From an uncultured Pelagibacteraceae bacterium (GTDB lineage: Bacteria; Pseudomonadota; Alphaproteobacteria; Pelagibacterales; Pelagibacteraceae), in assembly GCA_902580445.1 (NCBI GenBank), contig CACHKQ010000005.1:1-49332 (forward strand): a DNA stretch of 49,332 nt, written 5' to 3'. Numbering within the stretch: position 1 is the stretch's first letter; every line of letters starts with the position of its first letter. Of the stretch, positions 10,322 through 17,287 are shown piece by piece. The translations under genes were made by a program, and so were the position numbers. Below the pieces are notes generated by a model. That model searched no databases. It saw nothing but the letters and a program-made list of their open reading frames with translations, and had not been told where the DNA came from.

Positions 10322-11386
10322 ATGCCGAATAGTTCAGCCTCATTAAGTCTTTTATCCGTAATATCTTTGTTAAGTTTTTTTGTAGTTCTATTAACAAACA
10401 AATTTTCTTATAAAATTAAAAATGGAGCTTTATTAGATGAGGATTTTGAAAAACCCCAGGCTTTTCATCAATATCCAACCGCAAGAAGTGGAGGATTAGC
10501 TTCTTTTATATCGTTAGGTTTATTTTTTACTCTTTATTATTTTTTATTCGAAAAAGTTTTAATAGATTATTTGGTCTTAACTATAGCGATGTTTTTTTTG
10601 GGTTTCTTGGAAGATTTAAAGTTCAGCTTAAGAGCAATTTACAGACTGCTAATAATGTCAATTTTTTTATATTTGTTTATATTTTTTTTCTCTATAAGCA
10701 TTATTTCTCTTGATCTAAATTTATTAAATTTATGGATGAAAAATTGGTATTTTTCATCTTTTTTTATTTTGATCTGTTTTTTATTTATTATCAATGGAGC
10801 TAATCTTGTAGATGGTTTTAATGGGCTTTTAACAATACACATGCTTATAATAAATTTTATACTTTTGTATATAAATTTAAATAATGAAAACCAAGACCTT
10901 GCAATGATAATTACTGCTCAGATTGTTGTTTTAATATCTTTTCTACTTTTTAACTTTCCAAGAGCAACTATGTTTTTGGGAGATAGTGGCTCATATTTAT
11001 TTGGTTCATTGTTAGCTTTTAATATAATAAATACAAATAATTTAAATCCCCAGATTTCATCTTTCTTTTTTTGTATACTTTTATTTTACTTATTTTTTGA
11101 GGTTTTCTTTTCTTTTTTCAGAAAATTATATTTAAAAAAATCACCCCTTAAACCAGATAGATTACATCTACATATGTTAACATACGGTTTTTTATCTAAT
11201 TCTTTACACTTTAAAGATACCAACTATATAAATTCACTTTTAATAAATGTAATTTATACTTCTTTAATTATACCGGCAGTTTTTTTCATAGATAATGGGT
11301 TAATTTGTAAATACTGGTTTTTTTCATTATTAATTCTTTATATTATCTTTTATTCACTACTTTATAGTTTCGCAAAAAAGCAATAG
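10322..11386 (+). CDS. WecA/MraY-family phosphoglycosyltransferase
   Basis: A 354-residue polytopic membrane enzyme of glycosyltransferase family 4 (polyprenyl-phosphate N-acetylhexosamine-1-phosphate transferase). It shows the conserved acidic motifs FLGFLEDL, NGANLVDGFNGL and FLGDSGSYLFG, and the cytoplasmic histidine motif DRLHLHML. WecA/WbpL-type enzymes start surface polysaccharide or lipid-linked glycan synthesis; MraY proper is less likely because no peptidoglycan genes adjoin. It starts one base after the EamA gene. The aminosugar donor is unknown. Confidence 0.9.
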   Translation: MPNSSASLSLLSVISLLSFFVVLLTNKFSYKIKNGALLDEDFEKPQAFHQYPTARSGGLASFISLGLFFTLYYFLFEKVLIDYLVLTIAMFFLGFLEDLKFSLRAIYRLLIMSIFLYLFIFFFSISIISLDLNLLNLWMKNWYFSSFFILICFLFIINGANLVDGFNGLLTIHMLIINFILLYINLNNENQDLAMIITAQIVVLISFLLFNFPRATMFLGDSGSYLFGSLLAFNIINTNNLNPQISSFFFCILLFYLFFEVFFSFFRKLYLKKSPLKPDRLHLHMLTYGFLSNSLHFKDTNYINSLLINVIYTSLIIPAVFFIDNGLICKYWFFSLLILYIIFYSLLYSFAKKQ

Positions 11387-11403
11387 TTGTTATAAACTTT
11401 TGT

Positions 11404-11414
11404 TATAAAATTAA
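11404..11414 (+). promoter_or_regulatory. Candidate tRNA-Leu promoter box
   Basis: The bases TATAAAATTAA end six bases before the tRNA-Leu gene. The same 11 bases occur with the same six-base gap before tRNA-Ser at 40377-40387. TATAAA would act as the -10 box, with transcription starting just upstream of the tRNA. A direct repeat TTGTTATAAA (11387-11396 and 11400-11409) lies across it. No clear -35 box. Confidence 0.45.
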
Positions 11415-11420
11415 TTTAAT

Positions 11421-11505
11421 GGGCAAGTGGCGGAATTGGTATACGCGCTAGTCTTAGGAACTAGTGCCGCAAGGCTTAAGAGTTCGAGTCTCTTCTTGCC
11501 CACCA
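11421..11505 (+). tRNA. tRNA-Leu (anticodon UAG)
   Basis: An 85-base class II tRNA with the acceptor stem GGGCAAG/CTTGCCC, an encoded CCA end, the GTTCGAGTC T-loop region and the long variable arm expected of leucine tRNAs. The anticodon stem CTAGT/ACTAG encloses the loop CTTAGGA, giving anticodon TAG at 11455-11457. The CCA end lies only six bases before the tig start codon, so the two are almost certainly on one primary transcript. Confidence 0.96.
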
Positions 11506-11511
11506 ATATTT

Positions 11512-12876
11512 ATGAAAGTAAAAGTAAATTCTAAAAAAGGTTTTAAAACTATTTTATCTGTTTTAGTTGATAAAAAAACTATACAGAAAAAACTAGACGA
11601 AAAACTTAATGAACTTCAAAACAAAGTCCAATTAAAAGGTTTTAGACCAGGAAAAGTTCCAACTAATATTATAAAAAATCAATTTGGAAAGGCAGTATAC
11701 GGCGAAGTAATAGACGGTATTTTAAAAGAAACATCATCTAAAGCCATTGAGGACAATAAAATTAAAGTAGCAGGCCAACCAAAAATTGATTTGAAAACAT
11801 TTGGAGAGGGCAAGGATTTAGATTATACAATTGAATTAGAAACCTTACCGGAAATTAAAGTAAAGCCACTAAACACAATCAAGGCAACAGAATACAACAT
11901 TGAGATTGAAAAAAATATTATTGATAAAAGAATTGGTGAAATTGCTAAAAGTCAGCAAACTTTTGAAGATAAAAATGAAAATGAAAAAACTGAAAAAGGA
12001 GATATGGTTATTTTTGATTACGAAGGTAAAATTGACGGAAAAGAATTTGAAGGAAACAAGGGGAAAAATGTTCAATTAATTTTAGGTAGAGACCTTTTTA
12101 TAAAAGGTTTTGATGACCAACTTTTGGGAGCAAAAAAAAATGAAAATAAAACAGTAACTGTTAATCTTCCGCAAAATTTTCCAAAAAAAGAATTAGTAAA
12201 TAAAAAAACAAATTTTGACTGTAAAATTATAAATATAAAAAAACCTATTGACACAAAAATTAATGATGATTTTGCAAAAAAAATGGGTGCTAAAAATTTA
12301 GAAGATCTGAAAAGTTTAATTACAAAACAAATTTCAAATGAATATAAAAATAGTTTAAATATAATTACAAAAAAAAATATTTTAGAACAATTGGAAAAAT
12401 CTCACTCAATAGAGTTACCACCAAACTTAGTTGATCAAGAGGCAAAATTATTAACCAAAAATCAAAAAAAAGAAGATGAACAAAAAAATAAAGAAAAAAA
12501 TACCAAACTGGCCAAATCAAGAATAAAAGTTGGATTATTGTTAAATGAAATTGCTCAATCCAATAATTTAAAAATAGATGAGAATGAAATTAAAAATGAA
12601 ATACAAAAACAAATTAAAACCATGCCTGGTCAAGAAAAAATGGTAATGGATTATTATCAAAAAAATCCAAGCGCTGTTTCAAGTTTAAGAGGAGCTTTGT
12701 ATGAAGAAAAGATATTAGATTTAATTAAAAATAAAATTACGCTTAATAAAAAAAATATAACCACCAAAGAAGCCGAAGATATACTAAAATCTCATACTCA
12801 TGATCACGATCATAAGAGTGATAAAGAAAAAAACGTTAAAAAATCAAAAATTAAAAAAAAAAGTAAAAAGAAATAG
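11512..12876 (+). CDS. tig: Trigger factor, ribosome-associated chaperone and peptidyl-prolyl isomerase
   Basis: A 454-residue trigger factor. The N-terminal ribosome-binding domain carries the GFRPGKVP signature, followed by a FKBP-like PPIase domain (GDMVIFDYEGKIDGKEFEG through roughly residue 240) and a helical C-terminal chaperone domain. The chosen ATG lies six bases after tRNA-Leu; a longer frame would run into the tRNA and is rejected. There is no Shine-Dalgarno sequence. Residues 427-454 form an unusual tail, SHTHDHDH followed by a lysine-rich stretch. It heads the tig-clpP-clpX-lon order known from many bacteria. Confidence 0.96.
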   Translation: MKVKVNSKKGFKTILSVLVDKKTIQKKLDEKLNELQNKVQLKGFRPGKVPTNIIKNQFGKAVYGEVIDGILKETSSKAIEDNKIKVAGQPKIDLKTFGEGKDLDYTIELETLPEIKVKPLNTIKATEYNIEIEKNIIDKRIGEIAKSQQTFEDKNENEKTEKGDMVIFDYEGKIDGKEFEGNKGKNVQLILGRDLFIKGFDDQLLGAKKNENKTVTVNLPQNFPKKELVNKKTNFDCKIINIKKPIDTKINDDFAKKMGAKNLEDLKSLITKQISNEYKNSLNIITKKNILEQLEKSHSIELPPNLVDQEAKLLTKNQKKEDEQKNKEKNTKLAKSRIKVGLLLNEIAQSNNLKIDENEIKNEIQKQIKTMPGQEKMVMDYYQKNPSAVSSLRGALYEEKILDLIKNKITLNKKNITTKEAEDILKSHTHDHDHKSDKEKNVKKSKIKKKSKKK

Positions 12877-12889
12877 CTAAAAGCTATTT
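12871..12889 (+). terminator. Hairpin overlapping the tig stop codon
   Basis: AAATAGCT and AGCTATTT form a perfect 8-base-pair stem with a three-base loop, and the stem includes the tig stop codon. It is followed by a T and then AAATT rather than a long T tract, so it would be a weak intrinsic terminator or an mRNA 3'-end stabiliser. In such AT-rich DNA, chance pairing is possible. Confidence 0.3.
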
Positions 12890-12912
12890 TAAATTGTATA
12901 ACCCTTATTGCC

Positions 12913-13524
12913 ATGATTCGTAGAATAGAAGAACAATTAAACAATCTCGTTCCAATGGTTGTTGAGCAAACAACTAAAGGTGAAAGAGCTTTCGATATTT
13001 ATTCAAGATTATTAAAAGAAAGAATTGTTTTTTTAGTGGGTGGCGTAAACGATACAGTAGCCTCCCTGGTCACAGCACAACTTTTGTTTCTTGAGTCCGA
13101 AAATCCAAAAAAAGAAATTTTTTTTTATATTAATAGCCCTGGTGGATTAGTTACTTCAGGCTTAGGTATTTATGATACCATGCAATACATTAAATCACCT
13201 GTTTCAACACTTTGTATAGGCCAAGCATCATCAATGGGATCTTTTTTATTATCTGCCGGTGAAAAAGGAAAGAGATTTTCCTTACCAAATTCAAGAATAA
13301 TGGTGCACCAACCGTCAGCAGGATTTCAGGGTCAAGCTACTGACATTCAAATTCATGCAAAAGAAATATTAGCTTTAAAAGAAAGATTAAATAAAATTTA
13401 TTCTAAACACACAGGTAAATCTGTTAAGGAAATTTCCCAAGCCTTGGAAAGAGATAATTTTATGACTCCTGAAGAGGCTAAAGATTTCGGACTAATAGAC
13501 TCTGTAGTTGAAAAAAGAAAATAA
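12913..13524 (+). CDS. clpP: ATP-dependent Clp protease proteolytic subunit
   Basis: A 203-residue serine protease subunit that forms the ClpP 14-mer and degrades substrates fed by ClpX. The catalytic triad is complete: Ser107 in GQASSMGS, His132 in MVHQPSAG and Asp181 in ERDNFM, each ten residues beyond the E. coli mature numbering. The ATG at 12913 fits the family; the first dozen residues would be the processed propeptide. A TATAAC box at 12897-12902 could be a local -10 element. clpX follows after a 79-base gap. Confidence 0.97.
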
Positions 13525-13603: not shown

Positions 13604-14857
13604 ATGTCAGAAAAAAATAATAAAAATATACTTTATTGCTCTTTTTGTGGAAAGAGCCAACACGAAGTTAAAAAACTCATCGCAGGACCAACTGTATTTA
13701 TTTGCGACGAATGTGTTGAATTATGTATGGATATTATTAAAGAGGAAAATAAGAGTTCTTTAATAAAACATCAAGAAGGCGTTCCAACCCCAAGAGAAAT
13801 TTGCAAAATATTAGATGATTATGTAATTGGACAGACTCACGCTAAAGAAGTTTTATCAGTTGCTGTTCATAATCATTACAAAAGATTAAGCCACGAAAAT
13901 AAATCTAACAAAGATGTTGAGTTATCTAAATCCAATATCCTTTTAGTTGGACCAACAGGGTGTGGAAAAACTCTATTAGCACAAACTCTTGCTAGAATTT
14001 TGGATGTACCTTTTACAATGGCGGATGCAACAACTTTAACCGAGGCTGGTTACGTTGGGGAAGATGTAGAAAATATAATTTTAAAACTTTTACAAGCAGC
14101 CGATTACAATGTTGAAAAAGCTCAAAAAGGAATAGTTTATATTGATGAAGTTGATAAAATAAGCAGAAAGTCAGAAAACCCATCAATAACAAGAGATGTT
14201 TCAGGTGAAGGGGTACAACAAGCTTTGTTAAAAATAATGGAAGGTACTATTGCAAGTGTTCCACCACAAGGTGGTAGAAAACACCCTCAGCAAGAATTTT
14301 TACAAGTTGATACTACTAACATACTTTTTATTTGTGGTGGAGCCTTTGCGGGATTAGATAAAGTTATTGAAAATAGGGGTAAAGGAACTTCTATTGGTTT
14401 TGGTGCTAAAGTAAAAAGCAATGAGGATTCAACAATTTCCGAAATTATAAAAAAATTAGAACCAGAAGATTTAATTAAATATGGTCTAATACCCGAATTT
14501 ATTGGCAGGATGCCAATTATAGCTACTTTAAAAGAATTAGATGAAAAATCTTTGGTAAAAATTTTAAAGGAACCAAAAAACTCATTGTTAAAACAATACA
14601 AAAGGCTTTTTGAGTTTGAAGATGTGAAATTAGAATTCAGAGATGATGCTTTGATAGAAATATCTAAAAAGGCAATTAGCAAGAAAACAGGAGCAAGAGG
14701 TTTGAGATCTATATTAGAGTCTCTATTATTAAAAACAATGTTTTCTCTTCCAGATATGGAGAATGTAGAATCGGTCACAGTTGATAAATCAGTAGTTAAG
14801 GGCAAATCTGAGCCTATAATTACTTATTCTAAAGCCAAATCCACATCTGTGGCTTAA
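13604..14857 (+). CDS. clpX: ClpX ATPase, unfoldase of ClpXP
   Basis: A 417-residue AAA+ unfoldase. The N-terminal C4 zinc finger (CSFC with CDEC, residues about 10-38) binds adaptors and substrates. Then follow Walker A GPTGCGKT, Walker B VYIDEVDK, the pore loop in AGYVGEDVE, sensor regions (IPEFIGRMP) and the C-terminal domain with [11 protein letters not shown]. Length is normal. The 79-base gap upstream has no convincing promoter; co-transcription with clpP is likely. Confidence 0.97.
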
Positions 14858-14899: not shown

Positions 14900-17287
14900 A
14901 TGAGTCTTGAAAATTTCAAACCATTACTGCCCCTTAGAGACATAGTTATATTTCCGTCCACGGTAGTACCTCTTTTTGTCGGAAGAAAAAAATCTATTAA
15001 AGCTCTTGAAGAGGTTATGAAATCAGATAAATCAATAGTTCTAGTTGCTCAAAAAAACTCTGAAGTAGACGATCCTAAAGAACAAGATATTTATTCTTAT
15101 GGATGTCTAAGCAAAATTCTACAATTACTCAAACTCCCAGACGGAACAGTAAAAGTTTTAGTTGAAGGTATTAATAGAGTTAAAATTAAATCAATAAAAA
15201 ATGAAGAAAAAAAATATTTAAATTGTGAAATTGAAATAGTTTCAACTGTTGGTGACACTGATCAAAGCAAGGCTTTAGCGACAAGCTTAATTAAAAAATT
15301 TGAAAAGTTATCAAATTTAAGTAAAAAAGATTTGGGTGATTTCACAAAAAACCTTAAATCTTTATCTAAAACGTCTGATATATCAGATAATATCTCATCT
15401 AATCTAAATGTTTCAATTTTTGAAAAGCAAAAACTATTAGAAATTTTTGATATTACGAAAAGATTAGAGAGAATTTACGAAATTATTGAAAAAGAGACTA
15501 GCGTTATAAGTATGGAGAAAAAAATTAGAGGTAGAGTCAAAAACCAAATGGAGAAAACTCAAAGAGAATACTATTTAAATGAACAGCTTAAAGCCATACA
15601 AAAAGAATTAGGAGAAATCGAAGAAGGTAAGGATGAAGTTTCAAACCTAAGTAGCTCAATTTTAAAAGCTAAAATGACAAAAGAGGCACAATCAAAATGC
15701 TTATCTGAATTAAAGAAATTAAAATCTATGAGCCCAATGTCTGCAGAAGCAACTGTAGTAAGGAATTATCTTGATTGGATGATAGATCTACCTTGGAGTA
15801 ATAAAAGCAAAATTATAAAAGATTTAAAATCTGCGCAACAAATTCTAGATGAAGATCACTATGGTTTGGATAAAGTTAAAGAGAGAATTATTGAGTTTTT
15901 AGCAGTTCAAAAAAGGATAGAAAAATTAAAAGGTCCAATACTTTGTTTAGTAGGACCTCCAGGAGTTGGCAAAACCTCTTTAGGAAAATCTATAGCAAGA
16001 GCTACAGGAAGAAAATTTGTAAGAATATCTTTAGGCGGTGTTAGAGATGAAGCAGAAATCAGAGGCCACAGAAGAACCTATATAGGCTCTCTACCTGGAA
16101 AAATTATTCAAATGATGAAAAAAGCAGGTACCAAAAATCCTTTATTTTTATTAGATGAAATTGATAAGGTTGGAAGCGATTATAGAGGTGATCCATCTTC
16201 TGCTTTACTAGAGGCATTAGATCCAGAGCAAAATAAACAATTTAACGATCACTATCTTGAAGTTGATTATGATTTATCTGACGTAATGTTTGTCACAACA
16301 GCAAACACTCTTAACATATTACCTCCTTTGTTGGACAGAATGGAAATAATAAGAATACCTGGTTATACAGAAGATGAAAAAACTAATATTGCTCAAAAAT
16401 ATTTAATACCTAAACAAAGTAAAGATAACGGATTGAAAGATAATGAATGGAAAATATCTGAGAAAGTTATAAAAAAAATCATTAGAGATTATACAAGAGA
16501 ATCTGGTGTAAGAAATTTAGAGAGGGAAATTTCAAAAATTGCCAGAAAGACAGTTAAAAAAATAGATTCAAGTGAAAAAATAGAAAAAGAATTATTAGAA
16601 AAAGATGTTAATAGCTTTCTCGGAGTTAAGAAATACAATTATGGTGAGATCGAAAGTGAAAATAAAATAGGAGTTTCAACTGGTCTCGCTTGGACCGAAG
16701 TTGGTGGAGAAATACTTAAAATAGAATCAGTCAACATGCCTGGCAAAGGAAAAATGCAAATAACAGGTAAGCTTGGTGAGGTTATGCAAGAGTCAGTAAA
16801 AGCCGCAAAATCTTTTGTTAGATATAAGTCTGTAGAATTTGGAATAGTACCACCGCTTTTTGAAAAAAAAGATTTCCATATCCATGTGCCCGAAGGAGCG
16901 ACACCCAAAGATGGTCCATCTGCTGGTATTGCTATAGTGACTTCTATAATATCTTCAATTACTGGAATCCCGGTTAATAAAGATGTAGCGATGACAGGTG
17001 AAGTTACCCTAAGAGGAAATGTGCTACAAATCGGAGGTCTAAAGGAAAAATTATTAGCAGCACACAGAGCTGGTATTAAAAAAGTTTTAATTCCATTCGA
17101 TAATCAAAAGGATTTAATTGAAATCCCCGAAACGATAAGAAATAGTATTGAAATAGTAAGTGTAAAAACTGTCGAAGAAGTGCTTAAACATGCGCTTACA
17201 AAAGAACTCAAACCAGTTAAATGGGTAGAAATAGATCAAGTTTCAAATAAAAATAAAGAAAAATCAGAAGTTACAAGCGCTCATTAA
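14900..17287 (+). CDS. lon: ATP-dependent protease Lon
   Basis: A 795-residue LonA protease that degrades misfolded and short-lived regulatory proteins. Domains in order are the N-terminal LON substrate domain (PLLPLRDIVIFP, about 1-200), a coiled region with REYYLNEQLKAIQKELGE, the AAA+ domain with Walker A GPPGVGKTS and Walker B LFLLDEIDK, and the C-terminal serine-lysine protease domain with GPSAGIAI (catalytic Ser) and GGLKEKLLAAHRAG (catalytic Lys). No Shine-Dalgarno sequence precedes the ATG, which agrees with the leaderless promoter proposed just upstream. Confidence 0.97.
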   Translation: MSLENFKPLLPLRDIVIFPSTVVPLFVGRKKSIKALEEVMKSDKSIVLVAQKNSEVDDPKEQDIYSYGCLSKILQLLKLPDGTVKVLVEGINRVKIKSIKNEEKKYLNCEIEIVSTVGDTDQSKALATSLIKKFEKLSNLSKKDLGDFTKNLKSLSKTSDISDNISSNLNVSIFEKQKLLEIFDITKRLERIYEIIEKETSVISMEKKIRGRVKNQMEKTQREYYLNEQLKAIQKELGEIEEGKDEVSNLSSSILKAKMTKEAQSKCLSELKKLKSMSPMSAEATVVRNYLDWMIDLPWSNKSKIIKDLKSAQQILDEDHYGLDKVKERIIEFLAVQKRIEKLKGPILCLVGPPGVGKTSLGKSIARATGRKFVRISLGGVRDEAEIRGHRRTYIGSLPGKIIQMMKKAGTKNPLFLLDEIDKVGSDYRGDPSSALLEALDPEQNKQFNDHYLEVDYDLSDVMFVTTANTLNILPPLLDRMEIIRIPGYTEDEKTNIAQKYLIPKQSKDNGLKDNEWKISEKVIKKIIRDYTRESGVRNLEREISKIARKTVKKIDSSEKIEKELLEKDVNSFLGVKKYNYGEIESENKIGVSTGLAWTEVGGEILKIESVNMPGKGKMQITGKLGEVMQESVKAAKSFVRYKSVEFGIVPPLFEKKDFHIHVPEGATPKDGPSAGIAIVTSIISSITGIPVNKDVAMTGEVTLRGNVLQIGGLKEKLLAAHRAGIKKVLIPFDNQKDLIEIPETIRNSIEIVSVKTVEEVLKHALTKELKPVKWVEIDQVSNKNKEKSEVTSAH

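Follow-up and report, generated by a model that had tools for sequence, protein, structure and literature searches.

The window, that is the whole stretch of 49,332 nucleotides of DNA that was analysed, is part of a SAR11 genome labelled G000 (847 kb, 35 contigs, 82% complete). The following features lie around the junction of a leucine tRNA gene with tig, the gene for trigger factor:

10322..11386, + strand: membrane protein gene of 354 aa (open reading frame list), ending 34 nt 5' of the tRNA gene; by eye we take it to encode an MraY/WecA-like glycosyltransferase
11391-11396, + strand: a second TATAAA
11404..11409, + strand: TATAAA, candidate -10 element of the tRNA-Leu promoter, with no good -35 element seen
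11421..11505, + strand: tRNA-Leu(UAG) (anticodon TAG), found by ARAGORN and matched by RF00005
11506..11511, + strand: spacer ATATTT of 6 nt, the predicted 3' endonuclease site and predicted whole tig leader
11512..12876, + strand: tig, trigger factor of 454 aa, with the ATG at 11512-11514 (Pfam: Trigger_N, FKBP_C and Trigger_C)
12913-13524, + strand: presumably clpP (open reading frame list)
13604-14857, + strand: presumably clpX (open reading frame list)
14900-17287, + strand: presumably lon (open reading frame list)

The CCA end of the tRNA is encoded in the gene at 11503-11505 and follows the discriminator A at 11502, as read directly from the sequence. A preliminary description of this DNA had placed the CCA end at 11505 and the ATG of tig at 11512, with six nucleotides between them, and both ARAGORN and the sequence bear this out. 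Its statement that no Shine-Dalgarno (SD) sequence is possible for tig also holds: the 6-nt spacer is too small to contain one and there is none in the 3' end of tRNA-Leu (CTTGCCCACCA). The Pfam match to Trigger_N spans residues 1-143 of the protein and begins at profile position 1. Because the domain aligns from residue 1, the ATG at 11512 is well supported and a later start codon, which the description had named as a possible refutation, is ruled out. The GTG at 11464, inside the tRNA, which the open reading frame caller gave as the start, was rejected as a mechanical extension.

The preliminary description had suggested comparing the spacing in related genomes, and there the short gap is kept. 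tRNA-Leu(UAG) precedes tig in all 131 distinct SAR11 loci examined, with a gap of at most 12 nt in 114 of them, of 4-21 nt in 125 and with a median of 9 nt. In other alphaproteobacteria tRNA-Leu(UAG) is the nearest same-strand upstream tRNA of tig in 27 out of 29 distinct loci, taken from the best-scoring 30 of 277 genomes with a match, but here the gap is 45-937 nt. The gaps of the two groups differ with a Mann-Whitney p of ~4e-15, which is a guide only, as the loci are related. The pairing of tRNA-Leu(UAG) with tig is therefore old, whereas the closeness belongs to SAR11. Loci were counted as distinct over a 130-nt key, by which 34 repeats were removed from 194 loci, leaving the 131 SAR11 and 29 other loci. 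Excluded from the tally were L001, which duplicates L002, the non-SAR11 loci L061 and L063-L067, and the partial locus L062; two stretches of G190 (L401, L402) went unused as well. A tig match was found in 47 of 61 and in 215 of 247 genomes of two sets, and part of these loci were examined, including 80 regions and L312. An in-frame ATG near the aligned tig start was sought by the tally script, and no locus was dropped for want of one. Outside the alphaproteobacteria, the deltaproteobacterial locus L061 has a tRNA-Leu 163 nt 5' of tig, and no tRNA lies within 400 nt before tig in the four loci read from other phyla (L063, L064, L066 and L067).

The tig spacers in the relatives are variable in sequence, yet short and A/T-rich. 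An SD core is found in 3 of the 114 short spacers (≤12 nt) versus 2 of the 12 spacers of 13-60 nt, a weak hint that longer tig spacers regain the SD. Two SAR11 loci have longer gaps, of 79 nt in L180 and 116 nt in L167. The gap of L180 contains repeated GTGCAACA motifs, and L167 has CCTACCA, which resembles a tRNA tail, 9 nt before the tig ATG. The trigger factor match of L026/L060 (G013) has several in-frame stops and is split in two, so that it looks broken or misassembled.

Besides tig, other genes follow a tRNA just as closely. In five SAR11 genomes 145 tRNAs were examined, of which 78 are followed by a same-strand gene, 42 by a convergent gene end, 21 by another tRNA and four by none of these. 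The gap is at most 12 nt at 40 of the 78 tRNA-to-gene junctions, or at 39 of 78 with a second gene-calling model. Per genome these short junctions number 8/15 in G000, 7/16 in G032, 10/17 in G034, 11/16 in G061 and 4/14 in G037, the only genome of the sister family among the five, in which the tig gap is 21 nt. The gene starts at the junctions come from simple codon or hexamer models and not from a standard gene finder, and the junction of the G000 tRNA-Leu UAA (56 nt) may be miscalled. Compared with the RF00005 matches, the tRNAs examined were 27/27 in G000, 30/33 in G032, 32/33 in G034, 30/32 in G061 and 26/28 in G037, and outside SAR11 38/40 in G369, 38/38 in G377, 21/43 in G332 and 17/27 in G561. 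All 40 short junctions have an ATG start and one has an SD core, versus 33 and 11 respectively of the 38 longer junctions; for the SD core the difference (Fisher p ~0.001) is partly forced by the spacer length.

In G000 itself eight tRNAs have a start codon 1-10 nt beyond their CCA, and the genes that follow were identified by Pfam matches. They are glycosyltransferase 61 after tRNA-Met, 3-hydroxyacyl-CoA dehydrogenase after tRNA-Pro, histidyl-tRNA synthetase (hisS) after tRNA-His, an AMP-binding enzyme after tRNA-Leu(CAA), an enzyme of the poly(A) polymerase/CCA-adding family after tRNA-Gln (L110, gap 5 nt), trigger factor after tRNA-Leu(UAG), 2-hydroxyacid dehydrogenase after tRNA-Glu and SecE after tRNA-Trp.

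The pair of tRNA-His and hisS was followed through two families, in the best-scoring 18 of 38 genomes with a match in the family of the window (f1) and 12 of 17 in the sister family (f2). In f1 the hisS ATG lies 4-5 nt after tRNA-His in all 18 loci read, 14 of them distinct. Of the f1 genomes beyond these 18, G034 has the pair at 5 nt, and L268 (G032) has by eye a tRNA-like end 4 nt before the hisS ATG, which ARAGORN did not call and which has an RF00005 match. In f2 the 400 nt upstream of hisS contain no same-strand tRNA by ARAGORN in any of the 12 loci (9 distinct), and by eye AGGA, AAGGA or GGAG stands upstream of the start in 9 of the 12 (6 of the 9 distinct). Thus hisS mostly has an SD where the tRNA is absent and lacks it behind tRNA-His. 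In L096 and L433-L450 tRNA-His adjoins the gene of its own synthetase, a possible feedback unit.

Chance spacing is ruled out by the tally of 131 tig loci together with the junction counts in SAR11 and in other alphaproteobacteria, in which junctions of at most 12 nt are absent from two genomes of 1.4 and 3.4 Mb (0/21 and 0/22). They are also absent (0/11) from G332, an alphaproteobacterium of 0.9 Mb, so that small genome size alone is insufficient as a cause. By eye, several tRNAs of G332 are followed by a hairpin and a T stretch, which is terminator-like. Since G561, a Marinimicrobia genome (the one of L067), has 5 of 10 junctions at ≤12 nt, with gaps measured from the ARAGORN tRNA end and perhaps a few nt off, the layout also occurs outside SAR11. 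CCA is encoded in one of the 17 tRNA genes of G561, as ARAGORN ends them, and because most of them lack it a different 3' endonuclease may cut there.

The alternative that deserves most attention is pure streamlining, in which deletion bias and selection for a small genome brought the genes together, tig is co-transcribed with the tRNA, the gap is without function and tRNA processing plays no regulatory part. Compaction is indeed general in SAR11, because the gaps between tRNAs and convergent stop codons are even shorter (median 6 nt, n=42) than those to start codons (12 nt, n=78); the two kinds of gap are thus not equally short, an idea we rejected. The intergenic spacers of Ca. P. ubique are short as well, with a median of 3 nt (PMC2704228). 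With short spacers everywhere and shorter gaps to stops, the spacing alone could arise by deletion bias, and the Marinimicrobia genome is an unrelated small genome that shows the same layout, at 5 of 10 junctions. Nor is the missing SD special to genes that abut a tRNA, because SD cores are sparse in general (13 of 50 window genes vs 11% of random stretches). The 0 of 11 junctions in the 0.9 Mb alphaproteobacterium speak against this explanation, and so does the constant hisS gap of 4 or 5 nt, which drift alone does not predict. Moreover, whether or not streamlining is the origin of the layout, a tig mRNA must still carry the tRNA or be cut from it. We therefore regard streamlining as the whole explanation as rather unlikely.

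Whether the tRNA and tig share a transcript was judged from promoters and terminators. A simple scan listed no terminator-like site in 10500-13500 and no promoter before the tRNA-Leu of the window. In relatives, TTGGAC-N17-TATAA(A/G) or TATATA, ending 12-16 nt before tRNA-Leu, is present in 70 of 134 distinct SAR11 upstream sequences. The interval from the tRNA to tig has no terminator and no credible promoter, as in a tRNA-mRNA dicistronic operon. tRNA-Leu(UAG) occurs once per genome among the tRNAs examined in the five SAR11 genomes (1 of 27 in G000), and transcription should run into tig because the sole copy found in G000 is presumably needed. Taken together, the single tRNA, the missing terminator, the lack of room for a promoter and the consensus promoter in relatives make it very probable that tRNA-Leu and tig are co-transcribed. 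The earlier proposal that tig is transcribed from the tRNA promoter stands in so far as it draws on these points, while the window itself offers only the -10-like TATAAA. Read-through from the upstream gene into tRNA-Leu and tig is possible, and such a transcript would also pass through the tRNA.

A shared transcript raises the matter of how the tRNA is removed. Every tRNA examined in the five SAR11 genomes carries CCA in its gene. Six out of six SAR11 genomes have RNase E/G. RNase Z (TIGR02651) is over the cut-off in none of the six, with weak matches in five (best 66 bits vs 293), whereas nine out of 14 control genomes exceed it; SAR11 may have a divergent RNase Z. RNase PH is over the cut-off in four of the six, the exceptions being G000, which is incomplete, and G032. 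A comparable case is Propionibacterium acnes, which has no obvious tRNase Z and in which cleavage falls a few nt 3' of the encoded CCA of tRNAs (PMC3848588). If the A/U spacer is cut, a tig leader of 0-6 nt would remain, the short leader foreseen in the preliminary description; the dependence of chaperone expression on tRNA maturation, also foreseen there, may follow. The tig mRNA would not survive trimming by an exonuclease or cleavage within tig. From the sequence, the likeliest route appears to be that tRNA 3' processing releases a near-leaderless tig mRNA.

It is also conceivable that ribosomes bind beside the folded tRNA and translate tig without prior cutting of the tRNA-mRNA, so that tRNA processing and mRNA use are alternatives. 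The normal 30S footprint extends from about -20 to +15. In a fold model of the uncut precursor the spacer and start region are open, as opening -6..+15 costs 1.4 kcal/mol before the cut and 1.2 kcal/mol after it, which would allow such initiation. The footprint, however, requires the acceptor and T stems to be opened, at 11.9 kcal/mol for the longer region -18..+15. Since cutting hardly changes the cost for -6..+15, the barrier is predicted to be the tRNA itself; the uncut RNA would therefore be poorly suited to initiation in the usual way, which cutting would remedy, and we consider translation without cutting quite improbable.

An own transcription start of tig inside the tRNA gene, the other possible refutation named in the preliminary description, is highly improbable, because no + strand promoter was listed by the scan inside tRNA-Leu or the spacer (a silence that proves little, as the scan is also silent before the tRNA), the only TA-N3-T hexamer in 11421-11511 is TAGTCT at 11449 (3/6 matches) with a -35 of at most 3/6, and the leader would include part of the tRNA.

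We therefore prefer a model in which the tRNA-Leu(UAG) gene would be the first cistron of a SAR11 tRNA-mRNA transcription unit. Transcription would begin a few bases before the tRNA, as the promoter of the relatives suggests, meet no terminator and enter tig. RNase P would trim the 5' end of tRNA-Leu, and the A/U spacer would be cut right after the CCA by an endonuclease; RNase E/G, with its preference for A/U-rich sites, is the most likely candidate. Two products would result, the free tRNA and a tig mRNA whose leader is ~0-6 nt long and on which ribosomes would start at the AUG by a leaderless or SD-independent route. For this whole model, in which the cut and the translation are inferred, we put the probability at roughly 0.6. 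The same layout at about half of the junctions in the five SAR11 genomes, with tRNA-His/hisS, tRNA-Gln/CCA-adding family and tRNA-Trp/secE as examples in G000, suggests that the steps would apply there too.

The model resembles the tRNA punctuation of animal mitochondria, in which tRNAs abut reading frames and tRNA excision defines the 5' ends of mRNAs. As in mitochondria, the SAR11 tRNAs directly abut frames, which leaves no room for either a promoter or an SD, and their excision would set the mRNA 5' end and give near-leaderless mRNAs without SD. In contrast to mitochondria, SAR11 is free-living, its anti-SD is intact (16S rRNA end of G000), CCA is encoded and only about half of the junctions have the layout. 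Mitochondrial tRNA 3' processing is done by ELAC2 (PMC11996679), whereas the six SAR11 genomes have RNase E/G and no RNase Z over the cut-off. SAR11 is thus likened to mitochondrial punctuation and not classed as such, because the RNase Z feature fails and mRNA 5' ends at the tRNA 3' ends are a prediction.

Bacterial tRNA-mRNA operons exist, such as thrU-tufB of E. coli, in which the protein-coding part retains an SD-bearing leader, and plants have dicistronic tRNA-mRNA transcripts. SAR11 shares with both a tRNA and a protein gene in one predicted transcript; unlike in thrU-tufB, tig, hisS and others have no SD leader. The ordinary operon kind is also present in SAR11, where a gene that we take to be EF-Tu-like follows tRNA-Gly(UCC) after 36-43 nt and has an SD core in five out of five genomes. 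At tig the features of a leaderless gene are the AUG start and the absence of an SD, and the leader length hangs on the mRNA 5' end. In the leaderless mRNAs of Actinobacteria the transcription start coincides with the start codon or lies close to it (PMC3848588). The predicted SAR11 leaders of at most 10 nt, without room for an SD, are similar, as is the cutting downstream of an encoded-CCA tRNA without an obvious tRNase Z, but the leaderlessness is proposed here to come from tRNA processing and not from the position of the start site. Short SAR11 spacers and phage integration at tRNA-Leu(TAG) beside the trigger factor gene are known already (PMC2704228, PMC6811365). Our literature search, with subscription literature mostly outside it, recognised no earlier report of leaderless mRNAs made by tRNA processing in SAR11, and a study of Ca. 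P. ubique RNA mentions leaderless mRNA once, in a reference title (PMC2704228). SAR11 transcription start sites have been mapped in situ (PMC5069720).

Pelagiphages are reported to integrate into tRNA-Leu(TAG), where a trigger factor gene flanks the prophage (PMC6811365); a pelagiphage-like contig carries a tRNA-Leu fragment (PMC3861242). Three loci, L022 (at 451-1500), L075 and L090, have a complete tRNA-Leu at a distance of 965, 164 and 167 nt from tig and, nearer to it, the 3' part of a tRNA-Leu that ends 7, 7 and 10 nt before the gene. Such a pattern is expected of remnants of phage-type insertions. The inserts of L075 and L090 are short and very similar, though from two genera, and that of L022 has a 195-aa open reading frame. 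In cells with these three loci tig would be cut off from the tRNA promoter, and they therefore offer a natural test of the model. If the model is true, pelagiphage integration may have a cost, since it would part tig from the tRNA promoter.

About half of the SAR11 protein genes that follow a tRNA begin at most 12 nt away, and tRNA excision probably creates their mRNAs in a mitochondria-like manner. Tentatively, and at somewhat less than even odds, we extend this to a genome-wide SAR11 tRNA punctuation, in which 3' processing, probably by RNase E/G, would make leaderless mRNAs of core genes (trigger factor, HisRS, the CCA-adding family enzyme, SecE and others), with their supply tied to tRNA synthesis and maturation, and in which the layout would have evolved separately at least once more, in the small-genome lineage of the Marinimicrobia, whose tRNA genes mostly lack CCA. 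If true, this would be organelle-style gene expression in a free-living bacterium, and would directly couple tRNA supply to a ribosome-bound chaperone, an aminoacyl-tRNA synthetase and an enzyme of the CCA-adding family. SAR11 cells are some of the most numerous in the ocean, and their tRNA junctions would show how streamlined genomes do without promoters and ribosome-binding sites.
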